A stretch of DNA of 64,000 nt from Acidobacteriota bacterium (GTDB taxonomy: Bacteria; Acidobacteriota; Blastocatellia; Pyrinomonadales; Pyrinomonadaceae), in the NCBI GenBank assembly GCA_018269005.1, contig JAFDVK010000052.1, positions 62,001 through 126,000 on the forward strand, read 5' to 3'. Under the pieces are notes generated by a model. That model saw only the letters and a list, made by a program, of their open reading frames with translations. It ran no database searches and had not been told where the DNA came from. Positions 29,470 to 64,000 of the stretch are shown one piece after another. Each line of letters begins with the position of its first letter. Positions within the stretch are counted from its first letter, which is position 1. Both the position numbers and the translations under genes were made by a program.

Positions 29470-30939
29470 TTATTCTTCCTCAGTTTTTCCTTTCTTCGCA
29501 GGTTTTGCGGCCGGTGTCTTTTTAGGATCCGCCGCTGAGGCCGCGGGCTTGTCGGTCGCCTTCTCCGGAGGAGCGGTTGCTTTTGGCGTACCGGCAGCAC
29601 CTGCAGGATTCTTCACGGCGGTATTTGCCGCTCCGGTCTTTGGTGTGGGCGTCGCGTCGGGTTCCTGATTCTTTGGAACAGGAACGAGGATGACCCCGCC
29701 CTCGCTCGGCATAAAAACGCTGCCGCCGGGCTGGACGGTAACTCTTTGTCCGGGCGGTGCGATCGCTTCCGGCGGAAGGCCGTTGTTTTGATTAGCTTGC
29801 GGAAACTGCGAACCTGCGAGAGGGCCGGCGGTCGTTCCGCCGAGCGGAGCACCCGCGGGAGGCATCACACCATTGGACCACGCATTGTAACCATCGCCGC
29901 CAGGCGTTGCTCCATTCAAGTAGGGATCTTGAAGGGCATTTGGATCGCCGATCGGCGAGTTCTTGAGCAAGGCTTCTTCTTGTGCGCCTGTGGCAGGATT
30001 TATCGGCTGCACGGGCAGGCTGCCTTCATCGGCTTTCGCCGTTACCGTCGGATCGCTACCTTTCGAATAAGTTGCGTAGATCAGCACGCCGGCAAGCACG
30101 ACGATGCCGCACAATGCGATGAACGCCGTCTGCCAGATATTGTGCTTCTTCGGTGCGGTTGGGATCGAGGCAACACCACCGGATTCAAGGTAAAGTCGGT
30201 CGAGATCTTCGCGGAATGCAGAGGCGGACGCATAGCGTAATTCCGGATCGCGGGCCATGGCCGTTTCGATCACCGGAACGAGTTCCTTATGAGCGTTGTC
30301 GGGCAAAGTGTCTGCGAGGCCATCGGCTACGCCCGGACCGGCAAGCATACGTTTTAGGATCGCCCCAAGAGCGTAAATGTCAGATCTTTTGTCCGCGATC
30401 GGGTATTCATTGCTTTGCTCAGGAGCGAGAAACTCTGAGGAGCGGTCGCGGGGAGCATCGAACGAATCGCCGCCGAAGCCATAGACCTTCGGTGTCGAAG
30501 CGTCGTCAAGAAATACCTTGATCGGCGACAGTTGTCCGTGGATAACACCGCGTTCGTGTGCCGCCTCGACCGCGCGGGCGATACCTCGCGCAACGTCGAG
30601 AGCCCGATCTTGCGGCAGCGGTTGTGCAAGCAGCGAACTCAAAAGCGTCGATTCCGCCGCTTCGTAACCGGCATAAACATTACCGCGTGAATCTTCGCCA
30701 TAATCTTCAAGGCGAAGCACGTTCGGGTGTGAAATGCCGCTCGCGGCCCGAGCACGGTCAAGAAATTTCTTTGTCCAACGGCTATCTACTGAAAATGCGC
30801 GTGGAAGGACCTCGAGTATCAATGGTGTCTCGCGGGATTCGTGCACAGCCCGAAAGATATCCCCCGAATCATTCTCCAGAATGAGCGAATCAATACGATA
30901 CTTATCTGCTACGATCTTTCCGATCAGGTCGCTGGTCAT
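29470..30939 (-). CDS. Membrane pseudokinase of the bacterial Ser/Thr kinase family
   Basis: 489 residues. Residues about 10-255 keep the Hanks-kinase fold ('KYRIDSLI', 'ISHPNVLRLEDYG', LAPEQ at 171-175, 'DKRSDIYALGAILKRML'), but the catalytic residues are gone. The VAIK lysine is Glu43 (LILEVL), HRDLKPxN reads HGQLSPIK (134-141), and DFG reads GFG (154-156). One transmembrane helix (about 270-290) leads to a Pro/Ala/Lys-rich extracytoplasmic tail with glycine-rich 'PPGQRVTVQPGGSVFMP'. It probably binds partners or nucleotides without phosphorylating. It lies downstream of atpE on the same strand; no active kinase is adjacent. Confidence 0.88.
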   Translation of the reverse strand: MTSDLIGKIVADKYRIDSLILENDSGDIFRAVHESRETPLILEVLPRAFSVDSRWTKKFLDRARAASGISHPNVLRLEDYGEDSRGNVYAGYEAAESTLLSSLLAQPLPQDRALDVARGIARAVEAAHERGVIHGQLSPIKVFLDDASTPKVYGFGGDSFDAPRDRSSEFLAPEQSNEYPIADKRSDIYALGAILKRMLAGPGVADGLADTLPDNAHKELVPVIETAMARDPELRYASASAFREDLDRLYLESGGVASIPTAPKKHNIWQTAFIALCGIVVLAGVLIYATYSKGSDPTVTAKADEGSLPVQPINPATGAQEEALLKNSPIGDPNALQDPYLNGATPGGDGYNAWSNGVMPPAGAPLGGTTAGPLAGSQFPQANQNNGLPPEAIAPPGQRVTVQPGGSVFMPSEGGVILVPVPKNQEPDATPTPKTGAANTAVKNPAGAAGTPKATAPPEKATDKPAASAADPKKTPAAKPAKKGKTEEE

Positions 30940-31010
30940 CTTTAATTAGAACGCATTCAAACGTCCCAAGTTGCAAGTAAACACCAAAAACGGTGTGTTT
31001 GCCACAAAAT

Positions 31011-31060
31011 AACACGGCGGCAACCCGTTTGAGATGTCTCTCGGTCGGATGCCGCCGTTC
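31011..31060 (-). terminator. Hairpin downstream of atpE, possible terminator
   Basis: The arms acggcggca and tgccgccgt flank a 30-base loop in the 30940-31098 gap. On the minus strand the 3' arm is followed by 'gttattttg', which is weakly U-rich. It would end the atp transcript before the pseudokinase gene; the large loop makes this uncertain. Confidence 0.4.
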
Positions 31061-31085
31061 TTTGAATTTCGAGCAATACTCGATC

Positions 31086-31111
31086 CGTTAAGCTCTTTTT
31101 AGAGCTTAACG
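31086..31111 (-). promoter_or_regulatory. Perfect 11-bp inverted repeat across the atpE stop codon
   Basis: cgttaagctct (31086-31096), loop tttt, agagcttaacg (31101-31111). The atpE TAA (31101-31099) lies in the loop and arm. With no U-tract following, it may protect the mRNA 3' end or slow ribosomes rather than act as a terminator. Confidence 0.6.
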
Positions 31112-31416
31112 AAGACGACGAGCAGTGCGAAAAGCACGAGTGACTCGATCATGGCGAGGCCGATGATCATAAGCGTCATTACCGAACCCGAAGCACCGGG
31201 ATTACGTGCAGCTCCTTCGGCGGCACGCGAACCGACCAAACCCTGGCCGATACCGGCGAGACCGGCAACGAGGCCGAAACCGAGTCCGGCACCGAGAGCC
31301 TTAGCTGCGGAAACGGTCGATTCGTTGTCGGCGGCACCTGCACCCTGGGCCATTGCTGCCATGCTGAAAAGCGCGATGGCCAGCGTCGCGAAAACAATGT
31401 ATTTAAAGTTCTTCAT
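31099..31416 (-). CDS. atpE: ATP synthase F0 subunit c with N-terminal leader
   Basis: 105 residues, longer than the usual 70-90 because an N-terminal signal-like segment (1-24, ending MAQG) precedes the two-helix hairpin. Helix 1 is glycine-rich (ALGAGLGFGLVAGLAGIGQG), the loop carries AARNPG, and the ion-carrying Glu91 is in helix 2 (AMIESLVLFALL). It forms the rotating ring of the ATP synthase membrane sector. Gln58 and the Ser after Glu91 resemble sodium-type rings, but the Thr and Tyr of that signature are missing, so proton use is more likely. A 250-bp gap separates it from atpB. Confidence 0.95.
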   Translation of the reverse strand: MKNFKYIVFATLAIALFSMAAMAQGAGAADNESTVSAAKALGAGLGFGLVAGLAGIGQGLVGSRAAEGAARNPGASGSVMTLMIIGLAMIESLVLFALLVVFVKL

Positions 31417-31666: not shown

Positions 31667-32557
31667 CTACGCGTGAGCTGCCGCCGGCTCCGCATGTTCC
31701 GCATCGTGCTCATGGTCGTCATGCGGTGGATGCGAAACCTCGCCGATATAGATCATCGAGAGCAGAGTGAATACCAGCGTCTGCACGAATGCAACGAAGA
31801 CTCCCAAACCGGTCAAAACCAGCGGCAGGACAAAATGCGTGTACGGCGGGAAGATATTCGTTATCTCCATGTAAACCTTCTCGTCCGAAAACATATTGGC
31901 GAACAATCGAACGCCAAGAGTGAACGGCCGGAAAAAGTTGCTTATCAGTTCTATGCAGAAGATCAGGACCGTGATGACCACAAGGAACCACGGGAGCCTC
32001 GGCCCCGCCAGGTGAGCGATGTGCCGGCCGACGCCGTTCTCCTTTATGCCGACGTAGTTGTAATAAATGAACGACGAAAGGCCGAGAGCGTAAGTTACGT
32101 TCACCGAGGCGGTCGGTGACATAAATAGGGGGAACTGACCCATCAGATTCGAGATCAGGATCAGAACCGCGAATGTCGCAACGACCGGGAAGTATTTCTG
32201 GCCGTGGCTGCCGACGACATTCTCGAGCAGGTCGCGAACGGCAAGATAGCCGGCCTCGAGCGTCAACTGGCCGCCGCCCGGATCATCTTCAGAGAGCTTG
32301 CCCCTGAGCAGATAGATCACGATGACCGAGAGGATACAGGCGATCACGAACATCACCGTGTACCACGGAATGGCCGTTTCGGGGCTATATGGTGCATTGA
32401 AGACCACTTCAGGCGAAGTGCCAAAATGGGCAAAAAACTTGTCCCAGAGCGGTTTCGTGTATGCGATCTGGAATCTGTAGACCGGTTCGCCCAGATAGTG
32501 GTTTATGAAATCTACGATCAGCGGAGTGTGTTCACCGCCTTCTGCTAAAAGAAACAT
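31667..32557 (-). CDS. atpB: ATP synthase F0 subunit a
   Basis: 296 residues with about six transmembrane helices. The essential arginine is in FTLGVRLFANM, and the preceding 'LGLSSFIYYNYVGIKENGVG' and 'IELISNFFRPF' are typical of subunit a. The C-terminus is rich in His, Glu and Asp (HPPHDDHEHD), a basic-acidic tail of unknown purpose. It forms the proton half-channels beside the c-ring. The gene order atpZ-atpI-atpB-atpE is kept, while F1, b and delta genes are elsewhere. The 250 bp between its stop and atpE (31417-31666) hold no gene and may carry an atpE promoter. Confidence 0.95.
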   Translation of the reverse strand: MFLLAEGGEHTPLIVDFINHYLGEPVYRFQIAYTKPLWDKFFAHFGTSPEVVFNAPYSPETAIPWYTVMFVIACILSVIVIYLLRGKLSEDDPGGGQLTLEAGYLAVRDLLENVVGSHGQKYFPVVATFAVLILISNLMGQFPLFMSPTASVNVTYALGLSSFIYYNYVGIKENGVGRHIAHLAGPRLPWFLVVITVLIFCIELISNFFRPFTLGVRLFANMFSDEKVYMEITNIFPPYTHFVLPLVLTGLGVFVAFVQTLVFTLLSMIYIGEVSHPPHDDHEHDAEHAEPAAAHA

Positions 32558-32559
32558 CG

Positions 32560-32961
32560 CTATTTTCGGCTCTTAAAAATACTAAAAATTCCGTCTATCA
32601 TAACGGCGACAGCAAAGGCTGCCAGCCCGATCAACACCGCTGCGATCGGTAACGCACCTAGGGCGTAAATTCCCAATAGGAAAAGCCCTAACGCAAGATA
32701 CCGCAAGATGAAACGCGCGGCCGGAAATACAGACTTCCTGCCCTCGGCCCAGTCGGCAAAAAGGCCTTTTGTCGAACTTTCGAGCCAAACAAAGTTCACG
32801 ACAGACAAAAGCCCGCCGATCACAATGCCAATGCAGAAGCGCACATTTCCAAATATCAATCCCGCGATCGCAGCTATCGCTACGGCAACTGCCATCAGCC
32901 CGTAGATCCTTGTCCGCGAATACTCGCGAATATCACTCTCTGGATCCGTTTGGACGTCCAT
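32560..32961 (-). CDS. atpI: ATP synthase subunit I-like protein
   Basis: 133 residues and four transmembrane helices, without soluble domains. The 'GNVRFCIGIVIGGLLSVVNFVWLESSTKG' helix pair matches the ATP synthase I family placed just upstream of atpB in many genomes. AtpI helps assemble the c-ring. Its stop is 2 bp from the atpB start, so the two are co-transcribed. Confidence 0.85.
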   Translation of the reverse strand: MDVQTDPESDIREYSRTRIYGLMAVAVAIAAIAGLIFGNVRFCIGIVIGGLLSVVNFVWLESSTKGLFADWAEGRKSVFPAARFILRYLALGLFLLGIYALGALPIAAVLIGLAAFAVAVMIDGIFSIFKSRK

Positions 32962-32999: not shown

Positions 33000-33476
33000 T
33001 CAAAGACGAAAGGCGTTGTCTTGCGAATCTTGCTGGTCGTACGAGGAAAGGAGCGGATTGACCTTCGGAGAAGTTTTGTTTGGGAAGATGCGGGATGAGA
33101 TGTGAAATAGCTCAAAAAAGCCGATCGCGGCACCGAGAATCACGCCCGCAACAATGCCCCACGGCCTCGTACCCATCAAGAGATCGACGAGCCAACCGAC
33201 AAAAACCATGAACGCGATCGCTCCGGAAAATGCGATTCCGGCCGACCATCCGAGACCGACTCGCCGCACTTCCTCGTCGAGTGACGGCGGCGTAAACGAT
33301 TGTAAAATAAAGGGTTCTTCCGTCGTTTTTGTTTCAGGCTCAAAGAGCGAGAGGGATGTCTCGGGTTCTTGATCGGATGCAGCTTCGGGCCCGATGATCT
33401 GAGTCTGCTCGGCGGATGGGTCTTGCTGGTGCGGTTCTGCGTCCTCTGCGTATGGGTCTTGCCAATTTTCGCTCAT
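33000..33476 (-). CDS. atpZ: AtpZ/AtpI-family protein with acidic N-terminal extension
   Basis: 158 residues. The first 75 are acidic and Gln/Glu/Pro-rich with no clear fold. The second half has two transmembrane helices in the AtpZ pattern: RVGLGWSAGIAFSGAIAFM, 'VGWLVDLLMGTRPWG' and a following helix with GAAIGFFELF. AtpZ with AtpI forms a small magnesium/calcium-linked complex in some bacteria. The ATGA overlap with the upstream GT2 gene couples its translation to a glycosyltransferase. Confidence 0.85.
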   Translation of the reverse strand: MSENWQDPYAEDAEPHQQDPSAEQTQIIGPEAASDQEPETSLSLFEPETKTTEEPFILQSFTPPSLDEEVRRVGLGWSAGIAFSGAIAFMVFVGWLVDLLMGTRPWGIVAGVILGAAIGFFELFHISSRIFPNKTSPKVNPLLSSYDQQDSQDNAFRL

Positions 33477-60837: not shown

Positions 60838-62529
60838 ATGCAGTTCGCAATTCTTAAAACCGAAGATGGTGAGGTCGAGCTATCGAAGCCCGTGACCTCG
60901 ATCGGACGCACGTCAGATAATGACGTCTCATTCTCGGGGGATTCGAACATCTCACGGTCGCATGCTGAGATCGAGCTGCGCGACGGCACCTACTATTTGA
61001 TCGATCCCGGCAGCAGCAACGGAACGACTCTCAATGACGAGACTGTGAAGGGCGAAGTTCGGCTCACAGACGGCGATAAGATCGTTTTTGGAGGCTCAGC
61101 CAAGGCAGAGTTCCTATTCGGGTCTGCGACGCCTCAAAACGCTTCTGAAGGGCAAGCGGAGGCGAATCCGCAAACGCCATCGTCGGACGCCTTCAGTTCG
61201 GGCCCAAACCCGCTTTCGGACGCGGGCGGCCAGATCGGTTATCAGGCCGACTATGCAATGAATCAGGGCCTTTACGATGCGGGAAGCGGGCTGCGGAACA
61301 ACATCGCAAGTTCGCTCGCCTCGGGCGGTTCTTCCGGAGCATCTAGTGCGGCGGCAAGTTCTGCCGGAACGGCCGGAGCAGCGGCGGCCGAAACGGCTGC
61401 GAGCGGCAGCGGTTCGACGGTCTTGGTCGCAGGTATCGTCGGCGGCCTTGCGGTCGTCGCGATGGTCGGAGCCGGTGCGTACTACTACACACGCGGGGCG
61501 TCATCTTGCTCGGCGACGGCGAAGATCACGAGCCCCGAACAGGGCGAAACGCTCGCAAAGCCGACCGATATCCAGCTTGATATCTCGGACGCGGATGGCT
61601 GCGTCGCACGGGCGGTTCTAATGGTCGATCAAAAGCCGGTCGCATCCGCAGAGCCTCCGAATTTTGACGCGAGGATCGATCCGGCAGAGCATCCGGAACT
61701 CGCTGACGGCGACGTTCACGATCTCTCCGTTGTGCTCTATGACAAGAACGGCGGAGAAGCGGTGCAGAACAGCACCGTTATGCTCGCGTTCGATTCGCGT
61801 TCGGTCGCAAAACCTGAAACGCAAAATACACCTCAAGCCGGAGTGACGCCGCCGCCGCAAAATCCGACAGCCGTGAAGGTCACGCTCCTCGATGTGCAAA
61901 AAATGTCGCAGGCGCTTGTCAAAGAGTTTACGGGCGGGTTGGCATACGACCTCTCGGACAAGCAGTTTATGCAGGAGATCCAGAAGCGAACGGCAGAATA
62001 TGCGGCTCCGGGCTACACGGAAAGAGCCGCGAAATACCGCGATGCGATCAACGTGTCATTCACGCACGAACAGAACTTGGACGCGCCGCTCGGCTTTATC
62101 CTCGCGATGAGCCGCAGCAAGTTCGATCCCGCGAAAAAGGGCGATCTTGCAGGTCTATGGCAGATGAGCGATGCCTTTGTCGCCGACAACAAATACAACG
62201 GAACATGCGGCACGGAGACCATTGCCGACCCGGCCCAGAATTGTGCCGCGAAGGCGTGTGCCTTGTATATGAAATTCCTTGTTTACAGCGTTTTTGATTC
62301 GGATCCGATATACGCGGCGGCCGCATTTGGGAAGTCGCCGGCGGACGCTGCGGCCTGGAAGGCCACTTTTACTGCTGACAGGTCAAAGATTTGGAGTAAT
62401 ATAAAGACAGCGCCCGAACGTGAGCAGCTCGTAAGATTCTTTGCCGCAGGGATAGTCGCCGAGAACCCCCAAAAATTTGGCCTTGCGAACGAGCGGCCGC
62501 TTTCGGAGCTCTATCGTGTAACGATGTAG
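60838..62529 (+). CDS. FHA-domain membrane protein with an inactive lytic-transglycosylase-like domain
   Basis: 563 residues. FHA domain (1-95) with the phosphothreonine-binding set: GR (23-24), SRSH (39-42), SSNGT (59-63). Gly/Ser/Ala-rich linker, one transmembrane helix (about 194-217), an Ig-like beta-sandwich (about 224-320, 'ITSPEQGETLAKPTDIQLDIS') and a C-terminal SLT-like domain (about 350-563). At the catalytic position the sequence is LAMSRSKFD, so Arg426 stands where the adjacent paralog has Glu332 and active enzymes have Glu. The domain should therefore bind but not cut glycan. An adjacent paralog begins 11 bp later. The phosphorylating kinase is not in the window. Confidence 0.85.
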   Translation: MQFAILKTEDGEVELSKPVTSIGRTSDNDVSFSGDSNISRSHAEIELRDGTYYLIDPGSSNGTTLNDETVKGEVRLTDGDKIVFGGSAKAEFLFGSATPQNASEGQAEANPQTPSSDAFSSGPNPLSDAGGQIGYQADYAMNQGLYDAGSGLRNNIASSLASGGSSGASSAAASSAGTAGAAAAETAASGSGSTVLVAGIVGGLAVVAMVGAGAYYYTRGASSCSATAKITSPEQGETLAKPTDIQLDISDADGCVARAVLMVDQKPVASAEPPNFDARIDPAEHPELADGDVHDLSVVLYDKNGGEAVQNSTVMLAFDSRSVAKPETQNTPQAGVTPPPQNPTAVKVTLLDVQKMSQALVKEFTGGLAYDLSDKQFMQEIQKRTAEYAAPGYTERAAKYRDAINVSFTHEQNLDAPLGFILAMSRSKFDPAKKGDLAGLWQMSDAFVADNKYNGTCGTETIADPAQNCAAKACALYMKFLVYSVFDSDPIYAAAAFGKSPADAAAWKATFTADRSKIWSNIKTAPEREQLVRFFAAGIVAENPQKFGLANERPLSELYRVTM

Positions 62530-62540
62530 GCCGAAAGAGA

Positions 62541-63998
62541 ATGAAGTTCCTTTTCGTACAAGAAGTTGACGGCGAGACACGTGAGATCGTGCTTGAGAAA
62601 GAGCACACGACGATCGGGCGTGCGACGGACGTTGACCTGCAGCTTGACGATCAGGGGCTTTCGCGGCTGAATTCGACGATCTATCTTGAAGCCGATACGG
62701 TGCGGATCGTCGATAACGGTTCGACGAACGGCACGCTCGTGAACGATGAGCCTGCGTCGGCGGACGGCACGATCCTCGATGACGGCGATGTCGTAAAAAT
62801 GGGCAGCTCTACCGTGTTGAAATTCAAGAAGGCCGCGGAAGAAGCACCGGCGAATGCCGATGTCCAGCCCGACGCTTCGGCCGCCGCTTTTGCTCCCGCC
62901 GCGGCACCCGTTGCTGCTCCACCGCCTGCACCGGCGCCAACGCCGCTGAATTATTTGCCTTTGGCGATCATCGTCGGGGCAATATTCGTGATCGGGATTT
63001 CTGCGGCAGTGATCGCGATGACGGCCTTCTCAGGGAAAGGTGAAGTTGCTTCGACAAATCCGTACACCGGAGACGACCCGACATCTGCGGGCGATCGTGA
63101 CGGCGACCCCGGTTCGACACCGACGAGTTCGCCGTCGATTCAAGGCAGTTCCCAAACGGATACGAACGCATCGACGAATTCTGATCTTCCGCTTGCGCAA
63201 TCCACGCCCGTAAAGCCAGACCTTCCCGCAAAGCAGTATTCCGCGATGACGGACGCGGAAAAGCGTGCATATATCGAAGACCGTGCGATGCGCGTTGCCC
63301 AGATAATCGGCAATTCGACGAGCGAAAAGATCCCGCCCGATGCCGTTACGCGGATAAAAGGTTTCGTTGACGCGTATGTTTCACGGACGAAGGTCAGGCC
63401 GCTTTCGGGCTGCCGTTTTGGCGACAACTTGCAGGCGACCTATACGCGCGCGAGCAAGAACGCGCCGTTCATCATTCGAGCGTTCAACGAAAAGGGAATG
63501 GATCCGCGCATCGGGCTTTACCTCGCGATGATCGAGTCCGAACATTGCACGTGTCTGCAGAGTCCGACGGGGCCGCTCGGAATGTTCCAATTTACGCAGG
63601 CTACGGGAAGGCTGCACGGGCTGAATATCATTCCGGGCGCGACGCCCGCTCATCCTGATGAACGGTGCGAACCGGAACCGGCGTCGCGTGCTGCGGCATC
63701 GTATATGAAGGCGTTGGCCGGACGCTACGGAACCGGGCCGTCGAGCATTCCGCTCGCGATCGGCAGTTACAACAGCGGCGAAGGCGGCCTCAGTTCGAAC
63801 CTCGAAAAGGCATTGTCATCCGGGAGCGGTTTGCCGCGCGAATTTTGGACGCTTATCGAGAAGAGCGATATGCTCTCAAAGCAGTTCCAATCGGAGAACT
63901 TCAAATACGTGCCTAAATTTTTCGCCGCAGCGATCATTGGCGAGAATCCGAGAGATTTTGGCCTCGACCTGAACCCGATCTCGACATATACGAAATAA
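62541..63998 (+). CDS. FHA-like membrane protein with an apparently active lytic-transglycosylase domain
   Basis: 485 residues. FHA-like domain (1-95) with GR (26-27), SR (41-42) and STNGT (61-65), but the phosphothreonine-contacting His of SRxH is Asn44. Ala/Pro linker, one transmembrane helix (about 138-162), a Ser/Thr/Asp-rich spacer and a C-terminal SLT-like domain (about 300-485) with catalytic Glu332 (LAMIESEHC), 'GMFQFTQATG' and 'GSYNSGEGG'. Cysteines CTC and CEPEP suggest disulfides. It should cut peptidoglycan in the periplasm while its N-terminus faces the cytoplasm. The reading frame ends at the TAA two bases before the window edge. Confidence 0.85.
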   Translation: MKFLFVQEVDGETREIVLEKEHTTIGRATDVDLQLDDQGLSRLNSTIYLEADTVRIVDNGSTNGTLVNDEPASADGTILDDGDVVKMGSSTVLKFKKAAEEAPANADVQPDASAAAFAPAAAPVAAPPPAPAPTPLNYLPLAIIVGAIFVIGISAAVIAMTAFSGKGEVASTNPYTGDDPTSAGDRDGDPGSTPTSSPSIQGSSQTDTNASTNSDLPLAQSTPVKPDLPAKQYSAMTDAEKRAYIEDRAMRVAQIIGNSTSEKIPPDAVTRIKGFVDAYVSRTKVRPLSGCRFGDNLQATYTRASKNAPFIIRAFNEKGMDPRIGLYLAMIESEHCTCLQSPTGPLGMFQFTQATGRLHGLNIIPGATPAHPDERCEPEPASRAAASYMKALAGRYGTGPSSIPLAIGSYNSGEGGLSSNLEKALSSGSGLPREFWTLIEKSDMLSKQFQSENFKYVPKFFAAAIIGENPRDFGLDLNPISTYTK

Positions 63999-64000
63999 CC

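Follow-up and report, generated by a model that had tools for sequence, protein, structure and literature searches.

The locus described here raises the question of why a kinase gene stays beside the F0 genes of the ATP synthase in a whole bacterial order, the Pyrinomonadales (Acidobacteriota). In the window, by which we mean the whole 64,000-nucleotide (nt) stretch of DNA that was analysed, atpZ-like, atpI, atpB and atpE genes lie upstream of the gene in question, P0001, and on the same strand:

29470..30939, minus strand: pseudokinase gene P0001, 489 amino acids (open reading frame [ORF]; Pfam Pkinase, 44.4 bits)
30940..31098, minus strand: 159-nt spacer after atpE with a terminator-like hairpin (our own hairpin search)
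31099..31416, minus strand: atpE, ATP synthase subunit c (Pfam PF00137)
31667..32557, minus strand: atpB, ATP synthase subunit a (Pfam PF00119)
32560..32961, minus strand: atpI (Pfam PF03899)
33000..33476, minus strand: atpZ-like, ATPase_gene1 (Pfam PF09527)

The ORF of P0001 runs from an ATG at position 30939 to a stop at position 29470 and encodes 489 residues; the first-pass annotation had given these limits exactly and left out the strand, which is minus. Pfam model PF00069 matched residues 25-202 above its cut-off of 31.7 bits, as a protein kinase fold should, and Pkinase and PK_Tyr_Ser-Thr were the sole Pfam models to reach an E value of 0.001. AlphaFold models had a mean pLDDT of 32.1 over the full length and 35.2 over the kinase domain, because the input was limited to five closely related sequences; neither was usable, and the fold assignment therefore rests on sequence homology. 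The protein is laid out as follows:

30190..30918, minus strand: kinase-like domain, about residues 8-250 (PDB alignment to PknA/PknB; MAFFT)
30811..30813, minus strand: Glu43 in place of the VAIK lysine (sequence, MAFFT and PknA alignment)
30532..30540, minus strand: His134-Gly135-Gln136 in place of HRD (sequence, MAFFT and PknA alignment)
30472..30480, minus strand: Gly154-Phe155-Gly156 in place of DFG (sequence, MAFFT and PknA alignment)
30073..30129, minus strand: single transmembrane (TM) segment, about residues 271-289 (Kyte-Doolittle scan; WxTAF...GI...IYxT is conserved in the family)
29473..30072, minus strand: Pro-rich tail, residues 290-489, presumed periplasmic (topology from a cytoplasmic kinase fold)
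29986..30015, minus strand: tail motif PVQPINPATG, residues 309-318 (common to the motif-intact orthologues)
29845..29904, minus strand: tail motif PGGDGYNAW...PPAGAP, residues 346-365 (consensus of 63 degenerate proteins)
29674..29757, minus strand: tail motif PPG...SVFMP..GGVILVPVP, residues 395-422 (consensus of 63 degenerate proteins)

The annotation had read all three catalytic residues of P0001 as replaced and the structural APEQ and DxxSDIYALG segments as retained. Both points were confirmed: Glu43, Gln136 and Gly154 occupy the sites that an active Ser/Thr kinase fills with the VAIK Lys, HRD Asp and DFG Asp, and the retained segments are APEQ at residues 172-175 and DKRSDIYALG at residues 183-192. 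In a phmmer alignment to PknA, the Lys of VAVK and the Asp residues of HRD and DFG stand opposite Glu, Gln and Gly with no shift, and the register stayed the same when MAFFT aligned the protein with 23 motif-intact orthologues and 16 further kinases; the two alignments rule out that the catalytic residues are present at shifted positions. On these alignments P0001 is a pseudokinase, that is, a protein of the kinase fold whose catalytic motif residues are replaced. The tail that follows the TM segment is 200 residues long and contains 16% Pro; it should be periplasmic, since the kinase fold is taken as cytoplasmic.

To place P0001 among its relatives, we surveyed 119 genomes at the family level; the order level also comprised 119, all in that family, and the genomes are partly fragmented. 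The degenerate form was found in 65 of them and a motif-intact form in 44, with no genome carrying both; the 10 genomes with neither are all assemblies of at least 350 contigs, and real absence is not implied. A first search with an E value cut-off of 1e-25 matched 89 of the 119 genomes in 90 rows: 65 held degenerate kinases, 23 held motif-intact kinases and the last 2 a different type of kinase. A second search with a motif-intact query raised the motif-intact set to 44. Where motif counts below are given for 43 motif-intact proteins, they combine 23 and 20 proteins; L175 was added (44) for the 109-protein alignment. The two kinases of the different type, L112 and L113 (910-919 amino acids), belong to neither class and served as the outgroup. 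Blastp gave no match between the query and L047 or L055; L053, the duplicate loci L002-L008 and L051 were left out, and L054, a piece of another match, was excluded from the trees. Named relatives share 77-94% identity and come from Pyrinomonadaceae and other Acidobacteria MAGs. The gene also occurs at 100% identity on JAFEGD010000050.1 (L146, 3093 bases), filed under a 'Spirochaetes' MAG, which is most likely a mis-binned Acidobacteria contig. Another locus of the window's own genome (L052, C27:161455-162084) reads VVVR and NFG for VAIK and DFG and keeps HRD, and may encode a further pseudokinase.

The two forms were compared residue by residue in one alignment of all 109 proteins, on which DFG was also counted. 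The motif-intact proteins have the HRD Asp, the catalytic-loop Lys, the loop Asn and the DFG Asp in 44/44 cases each and the VAIK Lys in 43/43 readable ones; we infer from these motifs that this form is active. The catalytic-loop Lys, by comparison, is found in 0/65 degenerate proteins, the VAIK Lys in 39, the loop Asn in 33 and the DFG Asp in 32. The HRD Asp persists in five: four have this residue only, and L075 has Lys, HRD Asp and DFG Asp and lacks the loop Lys, the loop Asn and the DFG glycine. The GTxxY of the P+1 loop was seen in 44/44 motif-intact versus 1/65 degenerate proteins, the median activation segment is 20 residues in the degenerate versus 28 in the motif-intact form, and the window's subclade and one further pair (8 proteins) have also lost as many as 16 residues from the stretch that joins helices F and I. 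The Pro and Glu of APE are present in all 65 degenerate proteins, and the Arg partner in 64/64 readable ones. With APE Glu and its Arg invariant and the catalytic residues variable, the fold has been kept and the active site has not.

A kinase tree was built with the trait columns removed; for comparison it included 20 of the nearest paralogues and 15 further kinases, of which 13 come from the window's genome and 2 from relatives. The degenerate proteins formed one clade (SH-aLRT 99), the motif-intact proteins another (SH-aLRT 94), and the two together a clade with no paralogue inside (SH-aLRT 97). These values come from quick, unbootstrapped searches, and some terminal branches are long. By parsimony, the HRD Asp changed 4 times, the VAIK Lys 6 times and the DFG Asp 13 times on the tree; for the HRD Asp, one loss and three regains would be the simplest reading. 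In an atpB tree of 116 rows, from which L223-L225 were excluded, the genomes bearing the degenerate form also formed one clade (support 98). The kinase tree, the atpB tree and the common locus together show a single loss of catalysis, in place and by descent. Horizontal replacement by an unrelated kinase was considered and rejected, as the atpB tree groups the same genomes and the locus and a tail motif are common to both forms.

The region beyond the kinase domain was compared in the same way, its consensus being drawn from 63 degenerate proteins after exclusion of L026 (internal stop) and L090 (cut contig). It reads WkTAF...GI...IYaT in the membrane, followed in the tail by PVQPinPATG, PGGDgyNpWa...PP.GAP, pPgGq and S.FMp..GvilvPvP. 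With patterns composed after viewing the sequences and the 20 paralogues as the control for the tail motif, PVQP..P.TG was found in 61/65 degenerate proteins, 34/43 motif-intact proteins and 0/20 nearest paralogues; being common to both forms and absent from the paralogues, it is older than the catalytic loss. The FM-type tail motif, present in 58/65 degenerate versus 0/23 motif-intact proteins, looks new in the degenerate lineage. An N-terminal CPxCG zinc-ribbon-like segment occurs in 34/43 motif-intact versus 0/65 degenerate proteins, the stretch from domain to TM segment has a median of 37.5 residues in the degenerate versus 87 in the motif-intact form, and the tail a median of 189 versus 141. 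A tail shared with another protein of the window's genome was ruled out, the tail segment matching itself alone.

Selection on the gene was estimated from the two pairs with unsaturated dS, which gave whole-gene dN/dS values of 0.096 and 0.084. The kinase domain yielded 0.097 and 0.112, with the N-lobe (0.014 and 0.071) tighter than the C-lobe (0.136 and 0.138); the tail at residues 295-430 yielded 0.019 and 0.041, and the juxtamembrane and TM region 0 and 0.018. The tail and the TM segment are thus the most constrained part of the gene, which bears out the importance that the first-pass annotation had attached to the Pro-rich tail, for which it proposed a possible interaction with the wall or outer membrane. 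These values, and the presence of the degenerate form in 65 of 119 genomes, also speak against a chance event. Its description of a membrane pseudokinase kept as a binding fold likewise gained support from the strong selection, under which the fold residues are invariant and the catalytic ones vary.

The degenerate gene thus descends, in place, from the gene of a motif-intact, single-pass membrane Ser/Thr kinase that is encoded after atpZ-I-B-E across the Pyrinomonadales. One lineage lost the catalytic loop and the P+1 loop once, and its later members lost the Lys and the DFG Asp piecemeal. This lineage lacks the zinc-ribbon-like N terminus and the cytoplasmic linker with its Thr motif, and its tail is longer and has new conserved motifs, strong purifying selection acting throughout. 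We consider it fairly probable that the protein now serves as a noncatalytic membrane scaffold through its TM segment and tail. The kinase fold would then be a cytoplasmic protein-binding module, and the TM segment and periplasmic tail may bear the most selection-guarded share of the function. The target likely lies in the energy-transducing membrane or the cell envelope.

A special case of the scaffold reading takes the neighbourhood at face value: the protein might bind subunit a or the c ring of F0, or else F0 assembly factors, and would formerly, as an active kinase, have phosphorylated them. The gene does have the conserved adjacency to F0 genes that would mark an ATP synthase accessory protein. 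In 59/65 cases the degenerate gene follows atpB, on its strand, at a distance of no more than 1.3 kb, and it adjoins atpE on the same strand in 59/59 readable pairs, with a median spacer of 153 nt. The motif-intact gene likewise follows atpB, on its strand and at up to 4 kb, in 37/44 cases, two genomes having no atpB match. The linkage, present in both forms, is specific to the order: of the 43 genomes of the class outside it, 33 were searched for atpB with 31/33 positive, and a kinase was found in 0/30 atpB flanks examined (G121 left out).

The same neighbourhood also holds the evidence against such an accessory role. Among the degenerate genes, those of G019 and G020 share a contig with atpB but lie far from it, that of G063 is on another contig, well inside the contigs, those of G058 and G002 are on other contigs near contig ends, and one genome has no atpB match; among the motif-intact genes on other contigs, those of G094, G026 and G117 are near contig ends and those of G106 and G108 are unlinked. 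Of the 37 linked motif-intact kinases, 11 match more than 1.3 kb from atpB. In the four of these more distant loci that were inspected (L092, L096, L101 and L109), other ORFs lie between kinase and atpE, and one such ORF bears ADTIYLRDGRxVRGTVxGF near its start. A terminator-like hairpin between atpE and the gene was found in 35/59 spacers versus a mean of 0.4 in shuffles, these being first-order Markov sequences, 20 per spacer, with the limits chosen after seeing the hairpins; a promoter/terminator scanner, which admits loops of at most 8, detected no promoter, nor any terminator within the spacer that follows atpE. The terminator-like site therefore disfavours simple cotranscription or read-through, and transcription of the pseudokinase gene is probably separate or depends on limited read-through. 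The locus also has conserved glycosyltransferase, kdtA-like and MoxR genes nearby, which makes position alone a weak argument. Taken together, gene position suggests a tie of the pseudokinase to the ATP synthase, and we regard the accessory role as possible though unlikely.

The ATP synthase genes of this genome are split, with those for a, c, I and the Z-like protein in the window and the others at 695.9-700.4 kb of contig C3 (L252); C3:695910-700400 holds two b-type genes by Pfam and delta, alpha and gamma genes read from ORFs. These remaining genes were rejected as support, since they are on another contig, where the nearby kinase gene belongs to a different type and runs on the opposite strand.

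If not by scaffolding, the protein might act as a nucleotide or metabolite sensor, its pocket binding ATP or another ligand and signalling across the membrane without phosphotransfer. The VAIK Lys and DFG Asp are kept without the HRD Asp in 28/65 degenerate members, so that some of the family may still bind ATP, and 59/65 retain the second Gly-loop glycine. However, 19/65, P0001 included, have lost the VAIK Lys, HRD Asp and DFG Asp alike, and the repeated changes of the VAIK Lys and DFG Asp on the tree would not be expected of a conserved ATP sensor, which makes this role decidedly doubtful.

An adaptor resembling MviN, which another, active kinase of the same cell would phosphorylate and to which an FHA protein would bind, has a precedent in MviN/FhaA (PMC12599244), and the window's genome has 18 PF00069 matches (P0001 among them) and 17 FHA matches. 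The linker Thr motif [DE][DE]xT[VMI][VI] might be an FHA docking site. It was found in 29/43 motif-intact but 2/65 degenerate proteins, a count for which the pattern was composed after viewing the sequences and the comparison of the two forms was the sole control. Moreover, no FHA gene is adjacent, and the strongest constraint falls in and beyond the membrane; we therefore rate such an adaptor as very unlikely. The earlier suggestion that the protein might be the partner of an FHA system is accordingly not supported, whereas the membrane pseudokinase with its binding fold and the importance of its tail, as described in the first-pass annotation, are. That annotation mentioned neither the adjoining ATP synthase genes nor the motif-intact orthologue that occupies this locus in other genomes. 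Three FHA-domain matches are clustered at the end of the window, at 60895-64000 and just beyond (C47:122895-126285).

The kinase fold can also house other chemistry, as in SelO, which catalyses AMPylation, and SidJ, which catalyses glutamylation. A new enzyme activity of this kind would agree with the retained fold and with the HRD histidine, which is kept in 64/65 degenerate members. Against it, the pocket residues vary widely even among close members, the HRD Asp column having an entropy rank of 0.92 among kinase-domain columns and thus being among the most variable, and informal inspection revealed no alternative invariant polar set, which leaves the idea highly improbable. A decaying pseudogene, as the lost and variable catalytic residues might suggest, can be dismissed given a dN/dS of about 0.09 and retention in 65 genomes, in 64 of which the matching stretch contains no in-frame stop.

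We also compared the presumed scaffold with known systems. The motif-intact orthologue (for example P0002 or L097) resembles P0001 in its site after atpE, its order of domain, TM segment and Pro-rich tail, its PVQP..P.TG motif and its position as sister clade, and differs in its intact catalytic motifs, its usual CPxCG segment and its longer linker with the Thr motif. The nearest solved kinase domains are of the PknA/PknB type (PknA, E value of 1.5e-16). PknB shares with P0001 the layout of kinase domain, TM segment and outside part, and PknB and PrkC carry extracytoplasmic PASTA repeats; P0001, in contrast, has no PASTA match (Pfam, E value of 0.001) and no catalytic residues.

Among bacterial pseudokinases, ActPs3/MviN of Actinobacteria is described as having lost all catalytic motifs and as having a short activation loop and a TM segment after the domain (PMC12599244), all of which P0001 shares. 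The motifs that Table 1 of that account lists for ActPs3 (VALT / Lsidhp / Y--) nevertheless differ from those of P0001 (LILE / HGQLSPIK / GFG), and MviN, a peptidoglycan-synthesis membrane protein, is absent from the best 60 PDB sequence matches of P0001. The GLW pseudokinases of Proteobacteria are, on the same text, membrane associated with a TM segment after the domain (PMC12599244), as in P0001, but their signature as given there (GLW for HRD, LLLL/W at beta-3) was not found, and 0/65 degenerate proteins carry GLW. EssB/YukC is presented there as a single-pass membrane pseudokinase with a scaffold role (PMC12599244); it is a type VII secretion component, whereas P0001 matches only Pkinase-type Pfam models. 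The available text of this 2025 account places bacterial pseudokinase families in Actinobacteria, Proteobacteria, Cyanobacteria and Firmicutes and does not contain the string 'Acidobacter' (PMC12599244), and we found no account of the degenerate Pyrinomonadales kinase family in the open-licence literature searched. We regard it as a lineage-specific membrane pseudokinase family, set apart from ActPs3 and GLW by their published motifs, with a motif-intact orthologue that persists in sister genera.

What the family offers is one locus that carries a motif-intact kinase or a dead one according to genus, with a clean tree and intermediate stages. Because these stages lie at one locus, the order in which catalysis was lost and the parts that were retained can be read directly. 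The analysis further points to the short, conserved motifs of the tail, on the far side of the membrane, as the part that probably does the work. In its boldest form, which we hold to be quite unlikely, the scaffold reading would make P0001 an F0-tied kinase turned structural envelope protein, whose fold docks and whose tail links the ATP synthase or its assembly factors to the envelope. If true, the Pyrinomonadales would provide a natural series from kinase to scaffold, in which the active ancestor survives, at this very locus, in sister genera.
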